A DNA stretch of 64,000 nucleotides from Flavobacterium pokkalii (lineage in GTDB: Bacteria; Bacteroidota; Bacteroidia; Flavobacteriales; Flavobacteriaceae). A model generated the notes under the pieces. It was given only the letters and a program-made list of their open reading frames with translations, searched no databases and was not told the DNA's origin. Shown here one piece after another: positions 8,985 through 50,928 of the stretch (position 1 is its first letter; every line of letters begins with the position of its first letter). Location: positions 1-64,000 of the forward strand of contig NZ_NASZ01000013.1 of the NCBI RefSeq assembly GCF_014596575.1, written 5' to 3'. Position numbers and translations under genes: made by a program.

Positions 8985-9003
8985 GCCACAGATTACACGG
9001 ATT
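8985..9003. repeat. GCCACRGATTAYACGGAT-type dispersed repeat, solitary copy
   Basis: GCCACAGATTACACGGATT at 8985-9003 resembles the 21-bp inverted repeats that bound the GxxExxY gene at 38302-38322 and 38756-38776. This copy stands alone between the DUF4375-like gene and the small basic ORF. Confidence 0.5.
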
Positions 9004-9046
9004 GCTACTGATTTTTTTGAAGCTGCTATTTTGTTTAACCGCAAAT

Positions 9047-12701: not shown

Positions 12702-12707
12702 TTGAAT

Positions 12708-12765
12708 ACCGCAAATTCGCAAATTTTATTTTAAAGTTTTAAAAGGTAATTTGCGAATTTGCGGT
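12708..12765. terminator. Perfect 18-bp inverted repeat after metG
   Basis: ACCGCAAATTCGCAAATT (12708-12725) and its exact complement (12748-12765) enclose a 22-nt AT-rich loop, six bases after the metG stop. It is probably the metG terminator and belongs to the CCGCAAA-type repeat family seen elsewhere in the window. Confidence 0.6.
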
Positions 12766-12839
12766 TAAAAATAACTTCAAAGCTTTTGCTTTTATAAACA
12801 GATAAGCTACTTTTTAAGCAAAATTATTTTCTTTAGACA

Positions 12840-15402: not shown

Positions 15403-15636
15403 TTAACCGCAAAGAACACAAAGTTTTTCGCAAAGTCCGCAAAGTTTTTAAAAGAAACCATTAAGACATTAAGTTTATTTAAGAACTCTTTCTTTTGTTT
15501 TTGCTTTGCGTAAAAAAATGCATCCTTTGCTGTTAATTTTAAAATTAAAAACCGCAAATTCAAATCGAAAAATCTGTTAATCTGCGGTAAATAATTCAGT
15601 GAGCTTTGCGTAAAAACTTAGCGAACTTAGCGGTTA
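15403..15636. repeat. Inverted CCGCAAAG-type intergenic repeats
   Basis: This gene-free stretch between the Lys-rich gene and ssb starts TTAACCGCAAAGAACACAAAG and ends with an inverted relative (CTTTGCG...CTTAGCGGTTAA). A further AACCGCAAATTC...TCTGCGGT pair lies at about 15549-15588. Related sequence occurs at 12708, 40793 and 42065. No ORF of note is seen inside. Confidence 0.5.
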
Positions 15637-15650
15637 AAAATCCATTTAAC

Positions 15651-36784: not shown

Positions 36785-37066
36785 ATGATTTTAGAAATAG
36801 TATCACCAGAAGCATCTTTGTTTAAAGGAGAAATCACATCAATCACTTTGCCGGGTGTGGATGGTAGTTTTCAGATATTAAACAATCACGCTCCAATAGT
36901 TTCCTTACTTCAAAAAGGAACTGTAAAAATTACAGCTCCTAGTTTTAAGTTCAACAAAGAAACAGCAGCATTGTTTACTAAAGTAAATGATCAAAACTAT
37001 ACGTTGGCTATTTCTTCAGGAACTATTGAAATGAAAGACAATAAAGTAATTGTTTTAGCCGACTAA
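36785..37066 (+). CDS. atpC: F1F0 ATP synthase subunit epsilon, short form
   Basis: A 93-residue protein with the beta-sandwich of epsilon (MILEIVSPEASLFKGEITSITLPGVDGSFQILNNHAPIVSLL). It couples gamma to the c-ring. The C-terminal helical hairpin that inhibits ATP hydrolysis in E. coli (about residues 88-139) is absent; the protein stops at KVIVLAD. Short epsilons are common in Bacteroidota. The gene has a repeat-filled spacer from atpD and a terminator 20 bases downstream. Confidence 0.95.
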   Translation: MILEIVSPEASLFKGEITSITLPGVDGSFQILNNHAPIVSLLQKGTVKITAPSFKFNKETAALFTKVNDQNYTLAISSGTIEMKDNKVIVLAD

Positions 37067-37086
37067 GACAATCAAGGTTAATATAA

Positions 37087-37117
37087 AAACGTCAAGCATT
37101 GCTTGGCGTTTTTTTTT
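37087..37117 (+). terminator. atpC terminator
   Basis: AACGTCAAGC and GCTTGGCGTT form a near-perfect stem with a 3-nt loop, followed by eight T. The bioF -7 box starts at its last T, so the two genes are packed tightly. Confidence 0.85.
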
Positions 37118-37124
37118 ACTTTTG
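37117..37124 (+). promoter_or_regulatory. Possible bioF -7 box (leaderless)
   Basis: TACTTTTG fits TAnnTTTG and is only five bases before the bioF ATG at 37130. It follows directly on the atpC terminator, so bioF needs its own promoter. Confidence 0.45.
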
Positions 37125-37129
37125 TTTTT

Positions 37130-38305
37130 ATGAAAAAATTACCCAACAATCTTAAAGCAAAGTTAGAGGCTAGAATAAAAAACAATGCCTTGCGGCAGTT
37201 GCCAAAACCTAATGGTTTAATCGATTTTGCTTCCAATGATTATCTTGGTTTTTCAAAATCAGAGGCGATTTTTAATGCTGCGCATCAGTATTTATTAGCG
37301 AATAATTGTACCCAAAATGGCGCCACAGGTTCACGTTTAATATCTGGAAATCATCAAATATATCAAGAAGCAGAAAACTATATTGCTCAATTCCATCAAT
37401 CGGAGGCGGCATTGATTTTTAATTCGGGATATGATGCTAATGTTGGGTTTTTTAGTTCGGTGCCGCAAAAAGGAGATTTGATACTTTATGACGAACTTTG
37501 TCATGCTTCCATTCGTGACGGTATTCAGCTATCAAATGCTAAATCATATAAGTTTAAGCACAATGATTTTGAAGACTTAGAAAGACTTATTTTACGGTCT
37601 AATGGTAACGAAATTATACCAAATGAAGCTGAAGTGCAACTCACAACTGTTTACATTGTTACTGAATCTGTTTTTTCAATGGATGGTGATTGCCCAAATA
37701 TTGAAGAATTGCTTGCAGTTTCCGAAAAGTATGGTTGTTATGTTGTGGTTGATGAGGCGCATGCTTTGGGGGTTTTTGGTATTAATGGATCTGGATTGGT
37801 GCAGCAGTTTGCTCTACAAAACAAGGTTTTTGCTAGAATTGTGACCTTTGGAAAAGGATTGGGATGTCATGGTGCAGCAGTTGTAGGGAGTGAGGAATTA
37901 AGAGCATATTTGGTCAATTTTGCTCGTTCTTTTATATATACCACAGGGCTTTCGCCTCATTCAGTTGCGACAATTTTAGTTGCGTATCAGCAATTGGAAA
38001 CCGAACAAAATGATGTTCATTTGTTGAGAGAAAATATCGTTCATTTTAATCAGCAAAAGAATTTGTTGGGTTTAAAACCGCTTTTTGTTAGATCTAAGTC
38101 AGCAATTCAAAGTGCGATTATTCCAGGGAATGATAAGGTAAAATCGATTGCTAATAAGCTTCAGGAAAAAGGATTTGATGTGAAACCGATACTTTCACCA
38201 ACAGTTCCAGAAGGACAAGAGCGTTTGCGTTTTTGTTTGCATGCTTTTAATTCTAAAGAAGCCATTACTGAAGTTTTAACTTTGTTGAGTACTTTTGTTT
38301 TTTAG
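37130..38305 (+). CDS. bioF: 8-amino-7-oxononanoate synthase
   Basis: A PLP enzyme that condenses pimeloyl-ACP or pimeloyl-CoA with alanine in biotin synthesis. Starting at 37130 (MKKLPNNLKAKLEAR) it has 391 residues; the longer TTG-started frame from 37103 begins inside the atpC terminator and is rejected. Visible are FASNDYLGFS, TGSRLISGNHQIYQEAE, VDEAHALGVFG and the PLP Lys242 in FGKGLGCHGAA. It is the first gene of the biotin cluster; the next intact one is bioD beyond the GxxExxY insertion. Confidence 0.95.
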   Translation: MKKLPNNLKAKLEARIKNNALRQLPKPNGLIDFASNDYLGFSKSEAIFNAAHQYLLANNCTQNGATGSRLISGNHQIYQEAENYIAQFHQSEAALIFNSGYDANVGFFSSVPQKGDLILYDELCHASIRDGIQLSNAKSYKFKHNDFEDLERLILRSNGNEIIPNEAEVQLTTVYIVTESVFSMDGDCPNIEELLAVSEKYGCYVVVDEAHALGVFGINGSGLVQQFALQNKVFARIVTFGKGLGCHGAAVVGSEELRAYLVNFARSFIYTTGLSPHSVATILVAYQQLETEQNDVHLLRENIVHFNQQKNLLGLKPLFVRSKSAIQSAIIPGNDKVKSIANKLQEKGFDVKPILSPTVPEGQERLRFCLHAFNSKEAITEVLTLLSTFVF

Positions 38306-38322
38306 CCACGGATAATACGGAT
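38302..38322. repeat. Left 21-bp inverted repeat bounding the GxxExxY gene
   Basis: TTAGCCACGGATAATACGGAT is the exact reverse complement of 38756-38776. It starts within the bioF stop codon region. Confidence 0.9.
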
Positions 38323-38346
38323 ATAACTGATTTACACAGATGAAAT

Positions 38347-38744
38347 ATGGTAGACCTTTTGCATAAATCTATAACGGATTCAATTTTAAAAGTTTATTAT
38401 GAGGTTTATAATGAACTCGGTTCAGGTTTTCTCGAAAAAGTGTATCAGAATGCGATGTATTTTGAATTGATTGCAAGGGGTTACAAGGTTGAAGCACAAA
38501 AGCAAATCAAAGTTTATTTTAAACAACAGCTTGTTGGGGAATACGTTGCAGATTTGTTAGTTGAAAATAAAGTTATAAACTTAAGGCTTGCGAATTACTT
38601 ATGAATGTTCACGTGGCACAAACAATGAATTATTTAAAAGCTACAGAAATTGAAGTTGGCTTATTATTAAATTTCGGGGAAGAACCAGAATTTAAAAGGT
38701 TTATATATACAAATGATAGAAAAATAAATTTAAAAAATCAGTGA
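38347..38744 (+). pseudogene. GxxExxY-family protein gene with a one-base frameshift
   Basis: The first 75 codons read MVDLLHKSITDSILKVYYEV, then GSGFLEKVYQNAM (the GxxExxY signature) and YVADLLVENKVI. The frame then reaches an early stop at about 38602. In the +1-shifted frame the family's expected continuation appears: ELKACE-like LKACELLMNVHVAQTMNYLK, then EVGLLLNFG and PEFKRFIYTN, ending at 38742-38744. The total length of 398 bases is one short of 132 codons plus stop, so a single base was lost near 38581-38586. GxxExxY proteins have a predicted PD-(D/E)xK-like nuclease fold with no proven role. A sequencing error in the A-rich site is possible. Confidence 0.85.
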
Positions 38745-38755
38745 TAATCCGTACT

Positions 38756-38776
38756 ATCCGTATTATCCGTGGCTAA
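38756..38776. repeat. Right 21-bp inverted repeat bounding the GxxExxY gene
   Basis: ATCCGTATTATCCGTGGCTAA, exact complement of 38302-38322, ends seven bases before the bioD ATG. Confidence 0.9.
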
Positions 38777-38782
38777 ACATAC

Positions 38783-39400
38783 ATGAAATTATTTATAACA
38801 GGAATTGGTACCGATGTAGGTAAAACGATTGCTTCAGCAATAATAACGGAATCCTTAGAAGCAGATTATTGGAAACCTATTCAGGCGGGCGATTTAGAGA
38901 CTTCTGACAGTCATAAAATAAAGGGATATTTATCAAATGATAAGACAGTAATCCATCCAAACAGTTATGCTTTAAATACACCGGCGAGTCCACATTTGGC
39001 AGCCGAATTGGATAATGTAATTATTGATTTGGAAAAAATTATCGAACCAGTTACAGCTAATCATCTTGTGGTGGAAGGTGCAGGAGGAATTTTTGTTCCG
39101 CTAAATGATACCGATTGTGTAGTTGATTTGATAAAACCCGATTATAAGGTGATTGTTGTTTCCCGACATTATTTAGGAAGTATCAATCATACATTGCTAA
39201 CTATTGAAGCTTTAAAAGCCAGAAATACTGCCATTGCAGGAATTCTTTTTAATGGTAAAGAAAATGAATCTTCTGAATCTATTATTTTGAATAAAACAGG
39301 ATTAAACTGTATTGGCAGAATTGACGAAGAACCTTATTTTGATCAAAATGTAATTCGGGAGTATGCCGATTTGTTTCGTGAGAAATTATTGAATTTATAA
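38783..39400 (+). CDS. bioD: Dethiobiotin synthetase
   Basis: ATP-dependent ring closure of 7,8-diaminopelargonate to dethiobiotin. The 205 residues start MKLFITGIGTDVGKTIASA, the family's P-loop (GTDVGKT). VEGAGGIFVPLN is the second conserved loop. The length is a little short of E. coli BioD (225 aa) but complete. It starts seven bases after the repeat that bounds the GxxExxY insertion, so its transcription may be affected by that insertion. Confidence 0.95.
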   Translation: MKLFITGIGTDVGKTIASAIITESLEADYWKPIQAGDLETSDSHKIKGYLSNDKTVIHPNSYALNTPASPHLAAELDNVIIDLEKIIEPVTANHLVVEGAGGIFVPLNDTDCVVDLIKPDYKVIVVSRHYLGSINHTLLTIEALKARNTAIAGILFNGKENESSESIILNKTGLNCIGRIDEEPYFDQNVIREYADLFREKLLNL

Positions 39401-39401
39401 C

Positions 39402-39500
39402 AGAGAATAGAGGGTAGAACAAAGAGAATAGACTTTCTTATCTTTGTTCAAAATTATAGCGTTTAGTCTTTATTCTAATCTCTATTTTCTATATTCTTAA
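39402..39500. repeat. Imperfect inverted repeat in the bioD-bioA gap
   Basis: AGAACAAAGAGAATAGACT-type sequence on the left and its approximate complement (AGTCTTTATTCTAATCTCT) on the right fill the 103-bp gap. It can fold into a long imperfect hairpin of the sort common between genes in this window. Confidence 0.45.
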
Positions 39501-39503
39501 AAC

Positions 39504-40775
39504 ATGACTTTAACAGAAAAAGACAGCCAATACCTTTGGCATCCTTATACCCAGCACAAAACCGCTCAAACTCCAATTGCAATAACCAGAGGGGAAGGCG
39601 CTTTGCTTTGGGATGAAAATAACAAACAATATATTGATGCAATAGCATCCTGGTGGGTGAATCCTTTTGGGCATTCCAATAAATTTATTGCCGATAAAAT
39701 ATACAAACAACTTACAACCTTAGAACATGTGCTATTTGGTGGTTTCACCCATGAGCCAGCTATTCAGGTTGCTGAGAAATTGATGAAATTATTGCCAGAA
39801 AATCAGCAAAAAATATTTTTTTCTGATAATGGCTCGACTTCAGTGGAAGTAGCAATCAAAGTAGCTTTGCAATTTTTTTATAACAAAGGGGAAAAACGAA
39901 CCACGATTATTGCCTTTGAAGATGCCTTTCACGGTGATACTTTTGCGGCAATGGCTGCCAGCGGAATTTCCTTTTATACACAGGCTTTTCAGGGGATGTT
40001 TATTGATGTGGTACGTATTCCGGTTCCAATAAAAGGAAAGGAACAACTTAGTTTTGATACTTTAAGAAGAGTCATTTCAGAAAATAATTGTGCCGGATTT
40101 ATTTTTGAACCTTTGGTACAAGGCGCCGCTGGAATGGTGATGTATGAGCCAGAAACTTTGGATGAGCTTATAAAAATTTGTCGAGAAAATAATGTGTTGA
40201 CTATTGCCGATGAAGTAATGACGGGTTTTGGTAAGACCGGAAAAACCTTCGCAATGGATTATTGCGCTGAAATTCCAGATATGATGTGTTTGTCCAAGGC
40301 ATTGACTGGAGGAACCATCCCGATGGCAATTACCACTTTTACTCAGGAAATATTTGAGGCTTTTTATGATGAAGATATCAATAAAGCCTTGTTTCACGGA
40401 CATACTTTTACCGCCAATCCTACAGGTTGTGCAGCTGCTTTAGCCAGTTTTGAATTGTTGCAAACTCCTGAAATGCAAGCTAATTTGGTTCGCATCAATC
40501 AAAAGCATTTGGATTTTCAGGAATATATTAAAAAGCATCCAAAGGTTACGACGACCCGAGTTTTAGGTACTATTTTCGCCTTAGAAATAAAGAAAGAAAA
40601 TGAAGAAACCTATTATGGAACAATGCGTACTAAGCTCTATAATTTCTTTATCGAAAATGGTGTTATTCTGCGTCCGGTAGGGAATATCGTTTATATCCTG
40701 CCTCCATATATCATCAGCGATGAGCAATTGGATAAAATATACGAAGTAGTCGAAAAAGCACTAGAAATAGTTTAA
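39504..40775 (+). CDS. bioA: Adenosylmethionine-8-amino-7-oxononanoate aminotransferase
   Basis: A PLP class III aminotransferase that converts KAPA to 7,8-diaminopelargonate with SAM as amino donor. The 423 residues carry YLWHPYTQHKTA (the BioA N-terminus), WWVNPFGHSN, the DEVMTGFGKTGK loop and the PLP Lys265 (LSKALTGG). The order bioF-bioD-bioA implies cotranscription, apart from the GxxExxY insertion and the 103-bp bioD-bioA gap. Confidence 0.96.
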   Translation: MTLTEKDSQYLWHPYTQHKTAQTPIAITRGEGALLWDENNKQYIDAIASWWVNPFGHSNKFIADKIYKQLTTLEHVLFGGFTHEPAIQVAEKLMKLLPENQQKIFFSDNGSTSVEVAIKVALQFFYNKGEKRTTIIAFEDAFHGDTFAAMAASGISFYTQAFQGMFIDVVRIPVPIKGKEQLSFDTLRRVISENNCAGFIFEPLVQGAAGMVMYEPETLDELIKICRENNVLTIADEVMTGFGKTGKTFAMDYCAEIPDMMCLSKALTGGTIPMAITTFTQEIFEAFYDEDINKALFHGHTFTANPTGCAAALASFELLQTPEMQANLVRINQKHLDFQEYIKKHPKVTTTRVLGTIFALEIKKENEETYYGTMRTKLYNFFIENGVILRPVGNIVYILPPYIISDEQLDKIYEVVEKALEIV

Positions 40776-40902
40776 ATTTGTCAAAAAAAATTTCAGCAAA
40801 GATTCACAAAGGAAGTTTAAAGTTCCGCTAAATTATTTTATTGATTTTGTGTGTCTCTGCGAAAATTCTTTGTGAATCTTCGTGCAATAAAACAAAAAAG
40901 TC

Positions 40903-42061: not shown

Positions 42062-42115
42062 GTTTTAACCACAAAGGGCACAAAGTTTTTTCGCTAAGTT
42101 CCGCAAAGATTATAA
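42062..42115. repeat. CCGCAAAG-type dispersed repeat
   Basis: TTTTAACCACAAAGGGCACAAAG followed by TTCGCTAAGTTCCGCAAAG resembles the copies at 15403-15460, 40793-40890 and 12708. It lies 3' of the ketoacyl synthase gene, before recX. Confidence 0.45.
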
Positions 42116-42997: not shown

Positions 42998-45900
42998 ATG
43001 AGATTGAATTTTACTTTTAATAGCTTTTTGTTTTCTATATTAAATACTTTTTGTAAAAAAGTAGTTTTAGCATCTGTTTTGTTTTTGTTCCAAGTGGTAG
43101 TGTTTGCAGCTACAAACACCTATACTGGTTCAACTGGTGGTAATTGGAATACAGCTTCAAACTGGTCTTTAGGAACAGTTCCTACGAGTACTGATGATGT
43201 TGTAATCCCGTCAGGAAAAACAGTTGTGCTTAATGTTTCTTCGGTTAATGCTAAAAGTGTAACAGTCTCGGGAGAAATTGAAATCCCTTCTGATAGTAAT
43301 ATTAGTATAAATTCATTATTAATTGTTGTTACGTCTCCTTCAGGAAGGATTTTTTTTAACAAAAAATCTATAATTACATTACCTCAAGATGCTGCTTTAT
43401 ATCTTCAAAATGGTTCAAATAGTTTGGATACCTCGGATAACGGAGTTTGTAGTAATAACACAGAGATTCATGTAGGTACAACTAACTATGCTGTTTGTAC
43501 AGGTGGAGGTGCTTTGTATTCATTTGATCAAGTAGAGACTGCCGGAGGTATTAATATTGTAAGTGCCGGAGAAATTGGAAGTTCGCAAACTATCTGCAGT
43601 GGTTTTGTTCCAAATAGTTTAACATCAACTACAGCGGCTACAGGAGCCGGAATAAAAACGTATGAATGGCAAACGAATGCCAGTGGTAATTATGTTGCGA
43701 TTGGGGGGGCAACATCAGAAACTTATTCTCCTCCGGTTTTAAATACGACTACTAGTTATAGAAGAAGAACTGTTTCTGTAATTAATGGGCAAACATTTTA
43801 TTCTCAATATACTTCAGCTGTTACAATAACAGTCAATCCAGCAAGTGTAGGAGGGAGTATTGCGGGAAGTACTTCTGTGTGTGCAGGAACTAATAATTCA
43901 ACTTTAACATTAAACGGTTACACCGGATCTGTTGTTAAATGGCAATCCTCAAATTCGAGCAGCTTTTCATCCTCAGTAACAGATATTGCTAATACAACTA
44001 CGACTTTAACAGTTACTAATTTAGGGGCAACTACTTATTATAGAGCTGTTGTAGTTAATGGGACATGTAGTGCTGCTAATAGTTCAATAGCTACTATTAC
44101 TGTTACAGCTAATAATACAGTAAGTACAGCCTCGTTAACTTCAGCATTATGTTTTAATACAGCAATGCCTAATATTACTCATACAACTACCGGTGCTACC
44201 GGGATAGGTTCAGCTATAGGATTACCAACAGGAGTTACGGCATCATGGTCGTCAAATACCATTACTATCAGCGGTACACCTACGCAAACGGGTACTTTTA
44301 ATTATAGTATCCCTTTAACAGGTGGATGTGGAAGCGTTAATGCAACGGGTGTGCTAACCGTTAATAGCTTGCCTAATAATATAACGAATGGTTTTTCGGC
44401 AACTACTATTTGTGCCGGTGGTAGTCCGGAACTGACTTTTGATGCTGAAGATGCTACTTTTTCGACACCTTATAGTATTACTTATAAAAACGATGACACT
44501 TCTGTTCAATATACTGTTTCAATTCCATCTGCAGCACCTTATAGCTTTACTCCTGGGGATAATCCCACATCGAATACGGGTTATACTTTAGTTTCTATTT
44601 CGAATGCAACTTGTGTCAGAACGAGTGGTTTTGCAAATCCCGGAGCAAATTTAATTGTTCGTCCAATACCTACTGCTACTGTAAGTGGTACAACAAGTGT
44701 TTGTGTTGGTGCTTCGTCTCCAAATATTACATTTACGAATCCTCAAACAGTTGCTATAACCATAACTTATAACATAAATGGAGGAACAAATCAAACGGTA
44801 AATGTTGTAGGAGGAGGAAATAGTTCGACAAATGTAGCGGTTTCAACAGCATCAGCAGGTGATTTTGTTTATAATTTAGTTAGTGTGGTTTATCAAAGCA
44901 CACCCAATTGTTCGAACACACTTTCTGGTAGTGCAACGGTAACTGTGAATAGTAATTCTGTTGCGCCAACAAGTATCACTGGAACAACGACTATTTGTAG
45001 TGGAGATTCTACAATTTTGACTTTGAGTGGAGGGACAGCGGGAACAGGGGCTGTGGCCAAATGGTATTCTGGTTCTTGTGGAGGGACTTTAGTTGGAGCT
45101 GGAAGTAGTATAAATGTTTCGCCAACTTCAACGACTACTTATTTTGTTAGATATGAAGGAACTTGTAATACAACTTCTTGTACTTCTGCAACTGTAACTG
45201 TGAATGATAATAATACAGTAAGTGAAGCCTCATCAAGTCCAATATTATGCGCTAATGCTACTATGACTAATGTTACGCATACTACTACCGGAGCAACAGG
45301 AATAGGTGTAGCCAGTAATTTGCCGGCAGGAGTTACAGCTTCTTGGGCTTCTAACACAATTACTATCACTGGAGTTTCTACTGAATCAGGGACTTTTAAT
45401 TATAATATCCCTTTAACAGGAGGATGTGGAAATGTTAGTGCTACAGGAACGATTGTTGTTAATCCTCTTCCAACGACTCCAATAGCAGGTACCCCAACGA
45501 ATCCAACTTGTACAAGACCAACAGGTAGTGTGCCTTTGAGTGGGTTGCCTTCATCAGGGACTATTGTTCAAACAGGATACAAAGAAGATACTTATGCAAT
45601 TACAGGAGGTGGGACACAAACAATTTCAGGGCTTTTGCCGGGAACTTATTATTTTGCAATTGATAATGGAAGTTGTGTTTCTGGTACAGTGACTGTTGTT
45701 ATTATTGCTCCGGTTACTAATACCTGGTCAACCGGTTCCTGGTCGGATGGGACACCTACAATTAATCAAAGATTAGTTTTTGCTTCAGATTACACCAATG
45801 CAAATGATGTTGATATCGAAGGTTGTTCCTGCCAGGTTACGGGTTCAACAACAGTTACCATAAAATCAGGGCGTACATTGAAAATTGAAAATGGGGTTGA

Positions 45901-47350
45901 AGTTCAGTCAAATGCAAAATTGATTTTCGAGAACGATGCTAGTTTAGTTCAAATGAATGATGCTGCTGTAAACTCTGGAAATATCAATTACCATCGTCAT
46001 ACTGGCTTTGTAAAACGCTATGATTTTACCTATTGGTCATCACCTGTTGCGGGACAAACTCTAAAGGCTTTATCTCCCAATACACTTTACGATAAATATT
46101 ACAGTTATAATCCAACTTCGGGATGGAAAATAGAATATAATGGAGCTGCTATAATGGAAAAGGGACGTGGGTATATTATTAGAGCGCCGCAAACATTTAG
46201 TATTACTGTGCCGGCTGTTGATACAGCTCCTGAGTTTGTTGGGGTGCCTAATAATGGATTAGTTTCTTATGCTGTGCTCCCTAATTTGGTAAACCTTGTA
46301 GGGAATCCTTATCCATCGGCCGTTGATGCAGATAAGTTTATTGCTGCAAATTCAGCTTCATTGGAAGGGACACTTTATTTTTGGACTCATAATACATCGC
46401 CAAGTAAAAATATCGAAGGAGATGCTATTTATAATTACACTGCCAATGATTATTTTGTTTATAATAAAACAGGAGGTGTTGGTGTTTCTGGAAAAATAGC
46501 AGCAGGTCAAAGTTTTTTTGCACCATCAAGTACAACTGGAGGAACAGTACTATTTAATAATGCGATGAGATATACTGAAGGACAACCTAATTATGATAAT
46601 TCACAGTTTTATAAATTGGGAAGCACTTCTAAAACAACTACTAAAGCCGAGGTCGAAATTAAAAAAAGCCGTATTTGGTTGAATTTAACTAATAAAGATG
46701 GTGCTTACAAGCAAATGTTAATAGGTTATATTGACGGAGCTACTAATAATTATGATGCAGGTTTTGATGGTGTGACTTATGATGGAAACCAATTTGTTGA
46801 TTTTTATAGTGTGAATAATGCGGTAAATTTGGCTATTCAGGGTAGAGCTTTGCCTTTTGTAAAACAGGATAGTATAGCTTTAGGGTATAAATCAACAATT
46901 GCGGGTGATTTTCAAATAAGTATTGATCATGCCGATGGTGTTTTAGAAACTCAGAATGTGTTTTTAGAGGATAAAACACTAAATGTGCTTCATGATTTAA
47001 GAAAAGGAGCATATACTTTTACAACAGCAAAAGGAGTCTTTAATAATCGTTTTATATTGCGTTATGTAGATAAAAATGCGGTAGAGGAAGTTGCTGCTCC
47101 GGTTGTATCAGAGGAATTAAGTAATGAAGTTCTAGCCTCAGTTAAGGATGGAGTAATTACTGTGAATTCGACAGTTGGAGCTTTAAAAACAGTTGTTATC
47201 TATGATGTTTCAGGTGGAATCTTGTATCAAAAAGATAATGTTGATTCGAATGAATTAGTGATTCAACAATTAATTTCCAGCCATCAGGTTTTGGTGGTTA
47301 CCATAGTTTTGTCGGATGGGACAAGTTTGAGTCGAAAAGTGATTTATTAG
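42998..47350 (+). CDS. Giant secreted protein with Ig-like repeats and T9SS type C signal
   Basis: From the ATG at 42998 the protein has 1450 residues (a TTG ten codons earlier is not needed). The signal sequence includes [18 protein letters not shown]. The body is Ser/Thr-rich, with G8-like and Ig-like modules; two ~85-residue units near nt 44107-44355 and 45205-45455 are nearly identical ([29 protein letters not shown]). From about 45715 a module shared with the next protein begins ([40 protein letters not shown]). The end, [15 protein letters not shown] to SLSRKVIY, matches T9SS sorting signal type C. Probably a cell-surface or adhesin-like protein. Confidence 0.82.
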
Positions 47351-47372
47351 TCAATTAAGAAATAGTTTTAAA

Positions 47373-47407
47373 AATCCCGATTGTAGTTTGTAATCGGGAT
47401 TTTTTTG
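47373..47407 (+). terminator. Terminator after the first giant T9SS gene
   Basis: AATCCCGATT (47373-47382) and AATCGGGATT (47392-47401) form a perfect 10-bp stem followed by six further T. Confidence 0.85.
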
Positions 47408-47616
47408 GTTTAGAAAATTTTATAAGCTATTGGTTTAGCGATTGTTTGTATTGAGAACAATAATTTTTTCGAATCATAACTGTATTTTAACAGTAAAAAA
47501 CTACACTTAATCGATTTTTTACCTACTTTTAGTACGGATTTTTTTACCCCCAAAAAAGTCGCTCTCAACCGAATATAAGGTATTCGGCGGTTTGTCTATT
47601 TTTTTAATTGAAGGGT

Positions 47617-50600
47617 ATGCGTCCAAATTTTTTTACTTTCCAATCCTTGCTACAAAAGCCCGTACATACTGGTTTGCTATTGTTTCTTTGTCTTTTTCAA
47701 TCCTTTTTTTTATTTAGTCAAACGACTAAAACATTGACTTCGTCAGGTACATTAGAAGTGCCGGCTGGTGTTACTAGTTTGTCTGTTCAATGCTGGGGAG
47801 CCGGTGGCGGTGGTGGTGGTGCGAATGTGTTAAGTGGTGCTGGTGGAGGCGGAGGCGGAGGAGCTTTTGAAAAAAACACCAATTTTATAGTTGGTACGGA
47901 TAAGAACAATGTAAGAATACCATACACCGTGGGTGCTGGTGGTGCAGGTGGAACTTATTCTTCAACAAATGGACAGAATGGTGGTACTACTACTTTTGGT
48001 TCTGTTTCGGCTGCTGGAGGTGAAGGAGGTGGCGGAACGTCTTTAAGTGTTAGTTTGGGGATTTTTGGAAAAGGAGGAATAGGTGGAGTAGGAGGTTTTT
48101 CCGGAGGAAATGGGACTACTGCTAATAATGTTCTTGTGGGGTTAGGAAGTGGAAGTGGTGGTGGTGGCGCAGGTTCCGGAGGTAATGGAGGAGTAGGAGG
48201 GTATAGTCTTTTATTGTTGCCGTATGCCGGATCTGGTGGTATTAGTGATGCAAGTGGGACAGGAAGTGGTGGTAATGGAGGTGTTGGCTCTTTATTAGCT
48301 GGTTCAGGAAATAATGGAGTGGCTCCCGGCGGTGGTGGCGGTGGCGGTGTAATTTTGGCGAGTTTGCTTGGAAATGTAGTAGGAGGAAACGGAGGAAATG
48401 GTCAAATAAAAGTAACGTATACCTGTCCAACGTACAGTGTTTCTGGTGTTTCTGCTGCAAGTGCATGTACTACTTTTGGAACTACTTTAATTACGTTAAC
48501 TTCTTCAGCTGCTGGATTACCGGTTGGGACTTATACGGTAACTTACGACAGAAGTGCGCCTGTGGCTACTGGACTTACCGCAACTATGGTAGTCGAAACA
48601 GCCGGAACGGGAACTTTTACAGCCACAGGATTAACAGCGGCAGGAACAAGCAGAATAACGGTTAAAAGATTAACTTCTGTCGATTGTTTTACGGATATTA
48701 GTAATCAATATGTTGATTTGACTGTGAATACTGTGCCTGCTCAACCGGGAACGATAAGTGGTTATAATAGTCAATGTGCTGGAAATACTTCACAGACTTA
48801 TAGCATAGCAACTGTTGCTAATGCTTCGTCATACAATTGGACTGTCGATACGGCTTCAGGATGGGCTATTACTTCGGGACAAAATTCGAATTCGATTACA
48901 GTTACTGTTGGTACTGCTGCTGCCAATATAAGTGTGGTAGCGGTTAATGAATGTGGCAATTCGACTGCGAGTACATTGGCAGTCAATTTAAATATTCCGG
49001 CTCCAACGGCATCTGTTACCTTGCAGCCTACTTGTTTAGTAAATACAGGAACAATCACGGTAACGAGTCCTGCTCCGGCTGCCGGTATTAGTTATAGCCG
49101 GGACGGAATTGATTATTCAAATACCAGTGGGGTTTTTACTTTGGTGCCTATTGGTGATTATAGTATAACTGCAAAATATCCTTCCGGCTGCATCTCGGAA
49201 ATAGCTACTATTGCGATGGAATCTTCGGTTGTTGTAAGAACATGGAACGGTTCCTGGGATTCTGGAGTGCCTACTATTGAAGAAAAAGTCGTTTTCGAAT
49301 CCGATTATGATGAAGATGAAAGTATTGAAGCCTGTTCCTGTGAGGTGAACTCAGGAGCTGATGTGGAAATAAAATCAGGACGGTATATGAAACTTCGCAA
49401 TGAATTAGTGGTGGAGGATGGAGGTTCTTTAACTTTTGAGAACAATGCCAGTTTGGTTCAGATTAATGATGACAGTGAGAATTCAGGTGAAATAATTTAC
49501 AAAAGATATACGAAACCTGTAAAGCGGTATGATTTTACCTATTGGTCTTCTCCTGTTGAAGGGCAGACATTAAAAAAGCTTTCGCCAACTACTTTAGCGG
49601 ATAAATATTATAGTTACAACCCTAATACAGGTTGGGTGATTCATTATAATGGAAATAAGATTATGGAGCCGGGAGAAGGTTATATTATCCGCGCACCTCA
49701 AACTTTTAGTATTACCGCTGCGACCATTGATTATAATCCTAAGTTTGAAGGGCCGCCAAATAATGGAGAAATTACTAAAACTTTAGAAGGGAATAAAGTG
49801 TATCTTCTCGGAAATCCCTATCCGTCAGCCATTGATGCCGATGCGTTTTTGAATCTAAATTCGGATTTAGAGCTTGATGCAGAGGACAGAGTTTTAGAAG
49901 GAACACTTTATTTTTGGACGCATAATTCGCCACCAAGTGACAATGTTGGTACTTTTCCGGGGAATGACCCTGCAATTTACAATTATACAAGTAGTGATTA
50001 TGCTGCCTATAATCGTACCGGAGGTGTAGCAACCCATGCGGCTGTTGTAGATGATGATGAAAATGATCCAAATGATAATAATAATTTAAGTGAACCGACA
50101 GGGAAAATAGCCTCTGGACAGGGCTTTTTTGCGCCCACAACTAAGGGAGGAGAAATTGTTTTTAATAATAGTATGCGACTTATTGATGATGTGGTGATTG
50201 ACAATTCGCAGTTTTTTAAATTGGCAACTACTGCAAAATCAGCTAAAGCATTAGAGAAAAACCGACTTTGGCTGAATTTATCCAATGCTCAGGGCGCTTT
50301 TAAGCAGACTTTAATTGGTTATGTGACTGGCGCGACTAACGGATATGAAGGAAGTTTTGATGGTGTAAGTTATGACGGAAATCAGTATGTAGATTTTTAT
50401 ACTGTTAACCAAGGGGCAAATTTTTCTATTCAGGGAAGAGCTTTGCCTTTTCAGAAAAAAGATAGCATTGTTTTAGGTTATAAAACGGCTATTGTGGGTG
50501 AATTTCAAATTAGTATCGACCATGCTGATGGGAAGTTGGCTTCGCAAAAAGTATTTTTAGAAGATAAAATGCTGAATGTATGGCACGATTTGAAAGAACC

Positions 50601-50928
50601 TTACGTTTTTACCACTGAAAAAGGAATTTTTAACGACCGTTTTCTATTGTTTTATCAGGATAAAAATGCGGTGGAAGAAGATACAGTTGATACGGAAGTT
50701 GCGGGAGTAGTGATTGCTGTAAAAGACAAAACGATTACCATTAATAGTGCTGATTCATTAATAAATACCGTTGCTGTTTATGATTTTTCAGGACGCTTAG
50801 TTTATTCTAATTCTGTTATTAATGCTAATAGTACAGCAGTTAGGAATTTGTTTGTCAATCATGCGGCTTTAATTGTGCAGCTTGAATTAGAAAATGGTAA
50901 AAAAGTAAACCGGAAAATAATTTATTAA
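47617..50928 (+). CDS. Giant secreted glycine-rich protein with T9SS type C signal
   Basis: From the ATG at 47617 the protein has 1103 residues (a TTG start three codons upstream is rejected). A long signal peptide (LLLFLCLFQSFFLFSQ) precedes a glycine-rich domain of about 230 residues (GGGGGGAN, GAGGGGGGGAF), resembling Gly-rich adhesin or phage tail-fibre-like regions. Ig-like modules follow, then the shared ~540-residue module from about nt 49225 ([41 protein letters not shown]) and a T9SS type C end (NDRFLLFYQDKNAVEE to KVNRKIIY). It stands next to its homologue but has a different N-terminal region. Confidence 0.82.
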   Translation: MRPNFFTFQSLLQKPVHTGLLLFLCLFQSFFLFSQTTKTLTSSGTLEVPAGVTSLSVQCWGAGGGGGGANVLSGAGGGGGGGAFEKNTNFIVGTDKNNVRIPYTVGAGGAGGTYSSTNGQNGGTTTFGSVSAAGGEGGGGTSLSVSLGIFGKGGIGGVGGFSGGNGTTANNVLVGLGSGSGGGGAGSGGNGGVGGYSLLLLPYAGSGGISDASGTGSGGNGGVGSLLAGSGNNGVAPGGGGGGGVILASLLGNVVGGNGGNGQIKVTYTCPTYSVSGVSAASACTTFGTTLITLTSSAAGLPVGTYTVTYDRSAPVATGLTATMVVETAGTGTFTATGLTAAGTSRITVKRLTSVDCFTDISNQYVDLTVNTVPAQPGTISGYNSQCAGNTSQTYSIATVANASSYNWTVDTASGWAITSGQNSNSITVTVGTAAANISVVAVNECGNSTASTLAVNLNIPAPTASVTLQPTCLVNTGTITVTSPAPAAGISYSRDGIDYSNTSGVFTLVPIGDYSITAKYPSGCISEIATIAMESSVVVRTWNGSWDSGVPTIEEKVVFESDYDEDESIEACSCEVNSGADVEIKSGRYMKLRNELVVEDGGSLTFENNASLVQINDDSENSGEIIYKRYTKPVKRYDFTYWSSPVEGQTLKKLSPTTLADKYYSYNPNTGWVIHYNGNKIMEPGEGYIIRAPQTFSITAATIDYNPKFEGPPNNGEITKTLEGNKVYLLGNPYPSAIDADAFLNLNSDLELDAEDRVLEGTLYFWTHNSPPSDNVGTFPGNDPAIYNYTSSDYAAYNRTGGVATHAAVVDDDENDPNDNNNLSEPTGKIASGQGFFAPTTKGGEIVFNNSMRLIDDVVIDNSQFFKLATTAKSAKALEKNRLWLNLSNAQGAFKQTLIGYVTGATNGYEGSFDGVSYDGNQYVDFYTVNQGANFSIQGRALPFQKKDSIVLGYKTAIVGEFQISIDHADGKLASQKVFLEDKMLNVWHDLKEPYVFTTEKGIFNDRFLLFYQDKNAVEEDTVDTEVAGVVIAVKDKTITINSADSLINTVAVYDFSGRLVYSNSVINANSTAVRNLFVNHAALIVQLELENGKKVNRKIIY

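Follow-up and report, generated by a model that had tools for sequence, protein, structure and literature searches.

Inverted arrays of short units frame GxxExxY nuclease genes and point to a probable minimal selfish element

Between bioF and bioD in the window (the whole 64,000-nucleotide stretch of Flavobacterium pokkalii DNA analysed here) lies a broken gene of the GxxExxY family, framed by two matching arms in inverted orientation. The reading that we think probable, if only just, is that a minimal selfish element has decayed here, one in which a GxxExxY nuclease would read its own arms, with a life cycle resembling that of REPINs and RAYTs.

Results

A broken GxxExxY gene between inverted arms in the biotin operon

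A preliminary description of the window had reported an identical 21-bp repeat at 38302 and, inverted, at 38756. The window does contain TTAGCCACGGATAATACGGAT as a single copy per strand, starting at 38302 (+) and 38756 (–), and the repeat proves longer than described: the perfect inverted match extends to 23 bp (38301–38323 / 38755–38777), at the outer ends of whole arms of 41 nt each that are 85% complementary, with 395 nt between them (Table 1). The enclosed gene had been assigned to the GxxExxY family, correctly (PDDEXK_3), since the window pieces reach 75.2 and 42.1 bits against a curated cut-off of 35 (TIGR04256 / PF13366), though this copy is broken. Its family match is split over two frames, 38368–38577 and 38577–38699, and no single frame has the whole motif of E, D, ExK, Q and Y. 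At ExK a short deletion shifts the frame and reduces the longest open reading frame there to 85 codons, where about 125 would be expected. The window copy is a pseudogene, and with its reading frame broken it could be mobilised at most in trans.

The open reading frames bear out the earlier statement that the unit separates bioF from bioD. The TAG stop of bioF lies inside the left arm; the best model for this gene, TIGR00858, scores 346 bits against a cut-off of 426, and bioD and the next gene, bioA, both clear the cut-offs of their NCBIfam models. At three orthologous loci (L224, L227 and L232, in genomes G007, G029 and G051) the bioF stop has seemingly shifted into the left arm, in which case the element would encode the C-terminus of BioF. 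The possibility of an RNA family was dropped, as a search of 37000–40000 against Rfam gave just one match, a below-threshold miRNA at 37065–37132.

Table 1. Arms, genes and gene-free repeats in the window
Feature	Position	Strand	Remarks
Left arm	38301–38341	+	Four units, starting at 38307, 38316, 38325 and 38335 (spacing 9, 9, 10)
Right arm	38737–38777	–	Inverted copy; outermost 23 bp those of the left arm
Broken GxxExxY (PDDEXK_3) gene	38347–38699	+	5' piece 38347–38604; 3' family match 38577–38699, in another frame
bioF	37103–38305	+	Best model TIGR00858, below cut-off; stop overlaps left arm
bioD	38783–39400	+	TIGR00347 over cut-off; 5 nt past right arm
Solo arm, gene-free	8985–9013	+	Three units
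Gene-free hairpin	12708–12765		CGCAAAT units; ssDNA fold of 12705–12767 –22.6 kcal/mol, z –8.3
Gene-free arm pair with nested second pair	15403–15637		CGCAAAG/CACAAAG/CGCTAAG units; mostly missing in G462
Gene-free hairpin	40796–40885		CACAAAG units; z –3.2
Solo arm	42063–42108	+	Four units; complete hairpin here in G462

The host genome (3.89 Mb in 68 contigs) carries six more full-length GxxExxY genes, which score 117.7–144.1 bits against a cut-off of 22, and one fragment. These copies are diverse in sequence, so that no recent burst is in evidence. Aligned with G462, the closest relative found, the window shows about 94% identity as far as bioF and from 42221 on; between 38304 and 42053 identity is 79.5% over bioD and 85% over the following stretch, and this interval is likely, from the identity profile, to be a recombination tract starting at the element. 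Further along, at about 44108–50680, are glycine-rich stretches that resemble one another and that diverge strongly from G462 around 48046–48381, with well conserved flanks.

Arms accompany GxxExxY genes across genomes

An arm is built from about four degenerate units of about 9 bp in a row, with the consensus CRCNRA[T/G] (variants include CACGGAT, CGCAAAG, CACAGAG, CACAAAT, CACGAAG and others), and gene plus both arms make an element of roughly 450–550 bp. In strict triplets of the G type, units 1 and 2 are 9 apart, as the pattern dictates, and units 2 and 3 are 11–13 apart in 41/55; in those of the T type the latter spacing is 10 in 5/8. The context before the first unit is by majority TTTAAC on both sides, among the arms holding a strict double unit (47 left, 64 right). 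More divergent words are CATATAAG in L003, a CAGAATTTA-like word in L342 and CGCAATG in the Dyadobacter loci L162, L172 and L202.

We pooled 145 loci, namely seven from the window's own genome (the window included), 29 from its genus, 29 from its phylum and 80 named loci; two of the named loci repeat genus loci (L141 and L199 duplicate L076 and L091), leaving 143 independent records. We took the unit pattern from the first 65 loci (own genome, genus and phylum), and the named loci, together with a second sample described below, were scored later. At least two units stand inverted on both sides of the gene in 91/145 loci (own genome 4/7, genus 20/29, phylum 20/29, named 47/80), as against four loci in the wrong orientation (0, 0, 1 and 3 in the same groups) and five in reversed sequence. 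Nine of the 145 have no CRCNRA[T/G] unit on either side, and at least four of these (L003, L162, L172, L202) have arms built of another word. Scored as inverted repeats, 91 of 143 own flank pairs reach 30 or more, compared with 1/134 for flanks at a distance of 600 nt, 8.6% when pairs are swapped and 30/143 for direct repeats. Other open reading frames in the same loci, used as a control, gave 1/32. The expectation that the same 21-bp repeats would surround GxxExxY genes in relatives thus held for the four-unit architecture, which recurs, and not for the exact 21-bp word.

Of 148 genomes from the window's phylum, 75 have GxxExxY genes, as do 32 of 200 in a second sample, drawn from the phylum of G540 (record title Methylobacter). 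The latter gave 29 new loci, six of which were left unscored because the motif search missed the gene; among the 23 scored, both arms are present in 19, none is in the wrong orientation and 16 have a repeat score of at least 30. In this sample L369 and L371 are armless, and the arms of L365 and L349 are weak. By their titles, the named loci comprise 70 from Bacteroidota, three from Ignavibacteriota, two each from Acidobacteriota and Pseudomonadota, one each from Chlorobiota and Planctomycetota and one unplaced; the ten outside Bacteroidota are metagenome bins, in which mis-binning is possible. A phage or plasmid origin was considered and dropped, relatives being scarce among viral_contigs (three loci) and plasmid records (eight).

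The two arms of an element agree, and follow the protein

Elements vary in unit sequence, yet the left and right arms of the same element match. Agreement is complete at unit position 7 (85/85), high at position 2 (79/82; permuted mean 42.4, maximum 57) and position 5 (77/82; permuted mean 46.0, maximum 61), and weak at position 4 (46/52; permuted mean 42.7, maximum 48). The T/G letter at position 7 also follows the protein: when the nearest protein of less than 70% identity is taken, the letter agrees in 120/122 (mean 94.1 and maximum 107 in 2000 permutations), and it changes three times on the protein tree, as against at least 12 times in 200 shuffles. Positions 2 and 5 track the protein among close relatives only.

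Many elements share a word, so an element's own right arm is seldom the best of all right flanks (26/143 loci, with 81 in the top 5%). Within the bioF–bioD orthologues, 27 in number after three of the 30 loci could not be parsed, the mean own-arm match is 43.2, compared with a permuted mean of 35.3 and a maximum of 40.4 in 5000 permutations, and the own arm ranks first in 7/27. Independent pairs on supported branches number two to four; they never run contrary to co-variation and are not significant, significance being out of reach with so few.

Gene-free pairs and solo arms

The preliminary description had the arms enclosing only a GxxExxY gene, which is true of the 38301/38777 pair; elsewhere in the window there are arms without a gene. 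Among them is the related solitary copy reported at 8985, here read as a solo arm of three units. Four gene-free pairs fold better than their shuffles (z –2.5 to –8.3). The lack of most of 15403–15637 in G462 was considered as a clean empty site and rejected: an arm-like remnant persists in G462, the interval aligns in G533 at least, and the nested hairpin was probably lost from G462, to judge by these alignments.

A strict three-unit pattern, run over the 148 phylum genomes, has 893 matches, compared with 36 for the reversed pattern. The 75 gene-bearing genomes hold 820 of them (control 28) and the 73 genomes without the gene hold 73 (control 8), making matches about 11 times commoner where GxxExxY is present. 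Gene and arm counts are correlated (Mann-Whitney p 2e-10, Spearman 0.61, both uncorrected for kinship; the own genome, G000, was taken to have eight genes, as two of its nine listed matches are halves of the window copy). Arm matches are missing from 18 of the 75 gene-bearing genomes. Arm pairs may be nested or interleaved (L267, L270) or clustered in tandem (L272, L273). The two clusters, both in G166, in which PF13366 was not detected, are long runs of arm pairs. In G162, a gene-free pair lies inside copies of a larger repeat, and its interior is inverted in L260 relative to L261–L263; recombination, or active inversion between the arms, may account for this.

The preliminary description held that repeats occurring widely in the absence of any GxxExxY gene would speak against a mobile unit. 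They do so occur. We judge this view too strict, because deletion derivatives should themselves yield gene-free copies (L390 retains a piece of the gene) and because the gene-free copies concentrate in gene-bearing genomes.

Gene-free arms bear on the alternative that we take most seriously, unlikely as we hold it to be, in which the arms are a general family of hairpins between genes, set moving by some other enzyme (such as a Y1/RAYT transposase of subclass 2.6) or by replication errors, and GxxExxY is their cargo. Not only are arms frequent without the gene, but 7/73 gene-less genomes have at least four matches (12 each in G166 and G104, eight in G196 and four or five in four more). Moreover, the passages of PMC6006769 on the Bacteroidetes RAYT subclass 2.6 report atypical flanking repeats with copies dispersed elsewhere in the genome, and members that also do without the GT[AG]G foot, which keeps this alternative alive. 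It is weakened by four features that a cargo gene would not need: the same architecture around GxxExxY in the G540 sample, an arm type that follows the GxxExxY clade, the roughly 11-fold excess of matches in gene-bearing genomes, and the purifying selection on the gene described below.

Turnover at orthologous sites

A fresh insertion into the biotin operon can be ruled out, since the bioF–bioD location is common to many species of the genus: GxxExxY is found there in about 30. At L255 just 12 bp separate the two genes. Elsewhere the site holds gene-free CACAAAG pairs (L247, L256), a solo arm (L237) or other palindromes (L248, L249, L253). In species without GxxExxY a DUF2007 gene may be present at the site (for example L238–L241 and L252; PF09413 scores 26.3 bits on L240, against a cut-off of 25.7). 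At L239 a gene of the DUF2007 type stands next to a leftover right arm. The other palindromes at bioF–bioD are of the CCCTGTCAGGG type, and at L385 palindromes of the GTCATTGCGAGGAACGAAGCAATC type likewise occupy an intergenic site used by the arms.

The six other elements of the own genome were compared in up to seven relatives. The flanks in G462 are close to those of the host (of twelve 300-nt pieces, 11 are 92–98% identical and one is 81%), and at the six sites G462 has one element conserved, two replaced and three without the gene (L001, L002 and L003). At L006 it carries the same gene (99.2% aa). At L004 it has a version of 70.7% aa with the arm word CACAGAT replacing CACAAAT, and at L005 one of 61.8% aa with CGCAGAT replacing CACTAAT/CACGAAT. 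At L005 the divergence is bounded near the arms: on the left identity drops from 95% to 62% and lower at 1409, the outermost unit being at 1427, and on the right, where the outermost unit is at about 1905, it is 85% from 1929 and 92% from 1969. At L004 identity is 60–77% over 1414–1933 (87% in one step of the comparison and 25% in another), and the nearest 160 nt of the left flank are already down to 80–87%. Closer versions exist in relatives whose flanks are less similar than those of G462, namely at 94.3% in G325 for L004, and at 91.9% in G031 and 90.3% in G325 for L005; similarity of the element therefore does not follow similarity of the flanks.

Other sites turn over in the same relatives. 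The L006 site holds a GxxExxY gene of another clade in G051 and G031 (36.7% aa to L006, 71–72% to L095), a deletion derivative retaining part of a gene in G005, a gene-free pair in G325, a trace in G533 and nothing in G466. The L003 site holds a gene-free pair in G005, a solo arm in G462 and G031, and nothing in G466. L390, which keeps its arms and a piece of the GxxExxY gene, is one clear case of internal deletion of the MITE type. Most 'empty' sites retain a solo arm or trace, and some absences are thus losses. No target duplication was seen by eye at 14 junctions or at the further ones read, and no transposition event was seen across the orthologous-site comparisons. The swap of one element for another at a site could be the work of homologous recombination between strains.

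Selection on the gene

Six of the 30 copies at bioF–bioD lack a full-length open reading frame (L234, of 128 residues, was flagged as broken by the pattern and is counted as intact), and in-frame stops occur in 8/144 loci other than the window. Among intact bioF–bioD copies the median dN/dS is 0.10 (157 unsaturated pairs); by this measure, the GxxExxY gene is under purifying selection.

A ratio of 0.10 and the allelic turnover at fixed sites would both suit a host gene, serving in repair, defence or regulation, that is swapped by homologous recombination and has its arms as an operator or terminator for autoregulation; the weak Cas4-like matches given by PADLOC point the same way. We regard this as less likely than the cargo alternative. 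It does not lead one to expect gene-free pairs and solo arms elsewhere, nor genomes with several divergent copies that each have a particular arm word, nor six broken copies in 30 at bioF–bioD, and two-sided symmetric arms are unexpected of an operator. Homologous recombination between strains likewise explains the exchange at sites, and explains neither the genome-wide gene-free copies nor the link between arm type and protein.

The GxxExxY protein

In an alignment of 25 relatives (A1) the residues G, E, Y, D, ExK, Q and Y are invariant. The AlphaFold2 model (pLDDT 93.7) has a PD-(D/E)xK fold, as the preliminary description had supposed for the family. Its best fold match is Cas4 SSO0001 (4ic1_G; Z 10.0, rmsd 3.1 over 98 residues) and the next has Z 7.9, matches that the structure comparison grades as middling; Foldseek against the PDB returned nothing at E≤0.001, with 4ic1_B at E 0.018, and a sequence search of solved structures gave no match. 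For three GxxExxY proteins, PF13366 alone among Pfam models passes its cut-off, and neither a Y1 HUH nor a known transposase domain was found. No column of A1 has cysteine in at least half of its 25 sequences.

In the open-licence PMC literature we found no description of repeat-framed GxxExxY units, a search that included arm words of 16–17 letters and CCACGGATT, and nothing on TIGR04256 or PDDEXK_3. The excerpts of that literature that name GxxExxY are a CRISPR-RT note and a line in an algal-virus table, and for this widespread family no assigned biology was found. Excerpts of PMC12306157 give REP counts by RepRanger for two Flavobacterium species.

Two further explanations can be weighed here. 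In one, the arms act in RNA: paired in a long stem around the reading frame, they would stabilise the transcript or serve its processing, and the protein would cut or bind RNA. That the arms stay complementary while their sequence changes, and that the four gene-free pairs fold better than shuffles, fits this account. The unit itself, however, is conserved in one orientation, beyond what pairing needs, solo arms persist, and the predicted PD-(D/E)xK fold belongs mostly to DNA enzymes; we consider the account very improbable. The other, chance or an assembly artefact, to which a draft of 68 contigs might lend itself, is already refuted by arms read at 27 orthologous loci (in other species or the window) and on both sides at 91/145 loci.

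Discussion

The earlier suggestion of a minimal mobile unit has stood up in part: there is a recurrent unit of gene plus arms, with co-varying arms, gene-free derivatives and, at fixed intergenic sites, a turnover that outpaces that of the flanks. That the unit moves, we infer from the association of gene and arms as a unit, the matching of the arms, the derivatives and the unit-wise turnover.

In the selfish-element reading that we favour, the GxxExxY nuclease would recognise the unit arrays of its own arms, either as dsDNA or as ssDNA hairpins, and would cut there, after which repair or re-joining would spread the framed unit. Gene-bearing units would spread in cis and gene-free pairs in trans, with intergenic sites already holding such arms being favoured. 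By analogy, the life cycle would be like that of REPINs and RAYTs, with a chemistry other than that of HUH enzymes. The re-use of sites by different elements suggests that arm-bearing sites may attract new ones, as in homing, and the existence of gene-free doublets hints at mobilisation in trans like that of REPINs.

A broader proposal, which we advance tentatively and to which we give somewhat less than even weight, is that GxxExxY units represent a new class of mobile element present in several phyla, in which a lone nuclease would recognise arrays of a degenerate 9-bp word, drive its own replacement or insertion at arm-bearing sites and mobilise gene-free pairs in trans. Such a class would be an analogue of the REPIN/RAYT system, of independent origin and different chemistry, with rapid co-evolution of word and enzyme. 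If the selfish-element reading is right, most GxxExxY genes have the substrate of their enzyme lying next to them, in naturally varying forms matched to the protein, so that specificity could be tested at once. Intergenic hairpins, as a large class, would have an explanation, these bacteria would be credited with repeats on a par with the REPIN system, and a very small sequence-reading nuclease would be on offer.

Comparison with known systems

Cas4 carries an Fe-S cluster. GxxExxY may resemble nucleases of the Cas4/RecB type in its predicted fold and in its E...D-ExK-QxxxY pattern, and its sequence match to them is weak; given the cysteine columns of A1, the cluster of Cas4 is not expected in it. 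Homing endonuclease genes include PD-(D/E)xK types such as I-Ssp6803I, and GxxExxY is like them a small nuclease gene, dispensable, often broken and replaced at fixed sites. Unlike them, it has inverted arms, and its gene-free copies retain both. With MITEs and IS elements the units share terminal inverted repeats and a derivative by internal deletion, but they have no recognised transposase and have repeats that are internally repetitive, and no target duplication was seen at the junctions read.

The closest likeness is to the REPIN/RAYT system. In the passages of PMC3116915 and PMC6006769 that describe its organisation, the gene is flanked by inverted repeats, gene-free doublets, solo remnants and tandem clusters occur, and the repeats differ between gene clades; according to the relevant part of PMC6006769, REPtrons do not appear to transpose as a unit. 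GxxExxY units too consist of one gene in inverted repeats, with clade-specific repeats and dispersed gene-free hairpin doublets, the latter linked to the presence of the gene. They differ in that the enzyme is predicted to be a PD-(D/E)xK nuclease rather than a Y1 HUH transposase, in that the arms have no GT[AG]G foot (outer consensus TTTAAC) and are arrays of about four 9-bp units, and in that there are several genes per genome, replaced along with the arms at a site. By organisation REPIN/RAYT is the nearest kind, from which the units are set apart by enzyme and foot: a repeat-framed miniature element with a GxxExxY enzyme would be a known organisation with a new enzyme.
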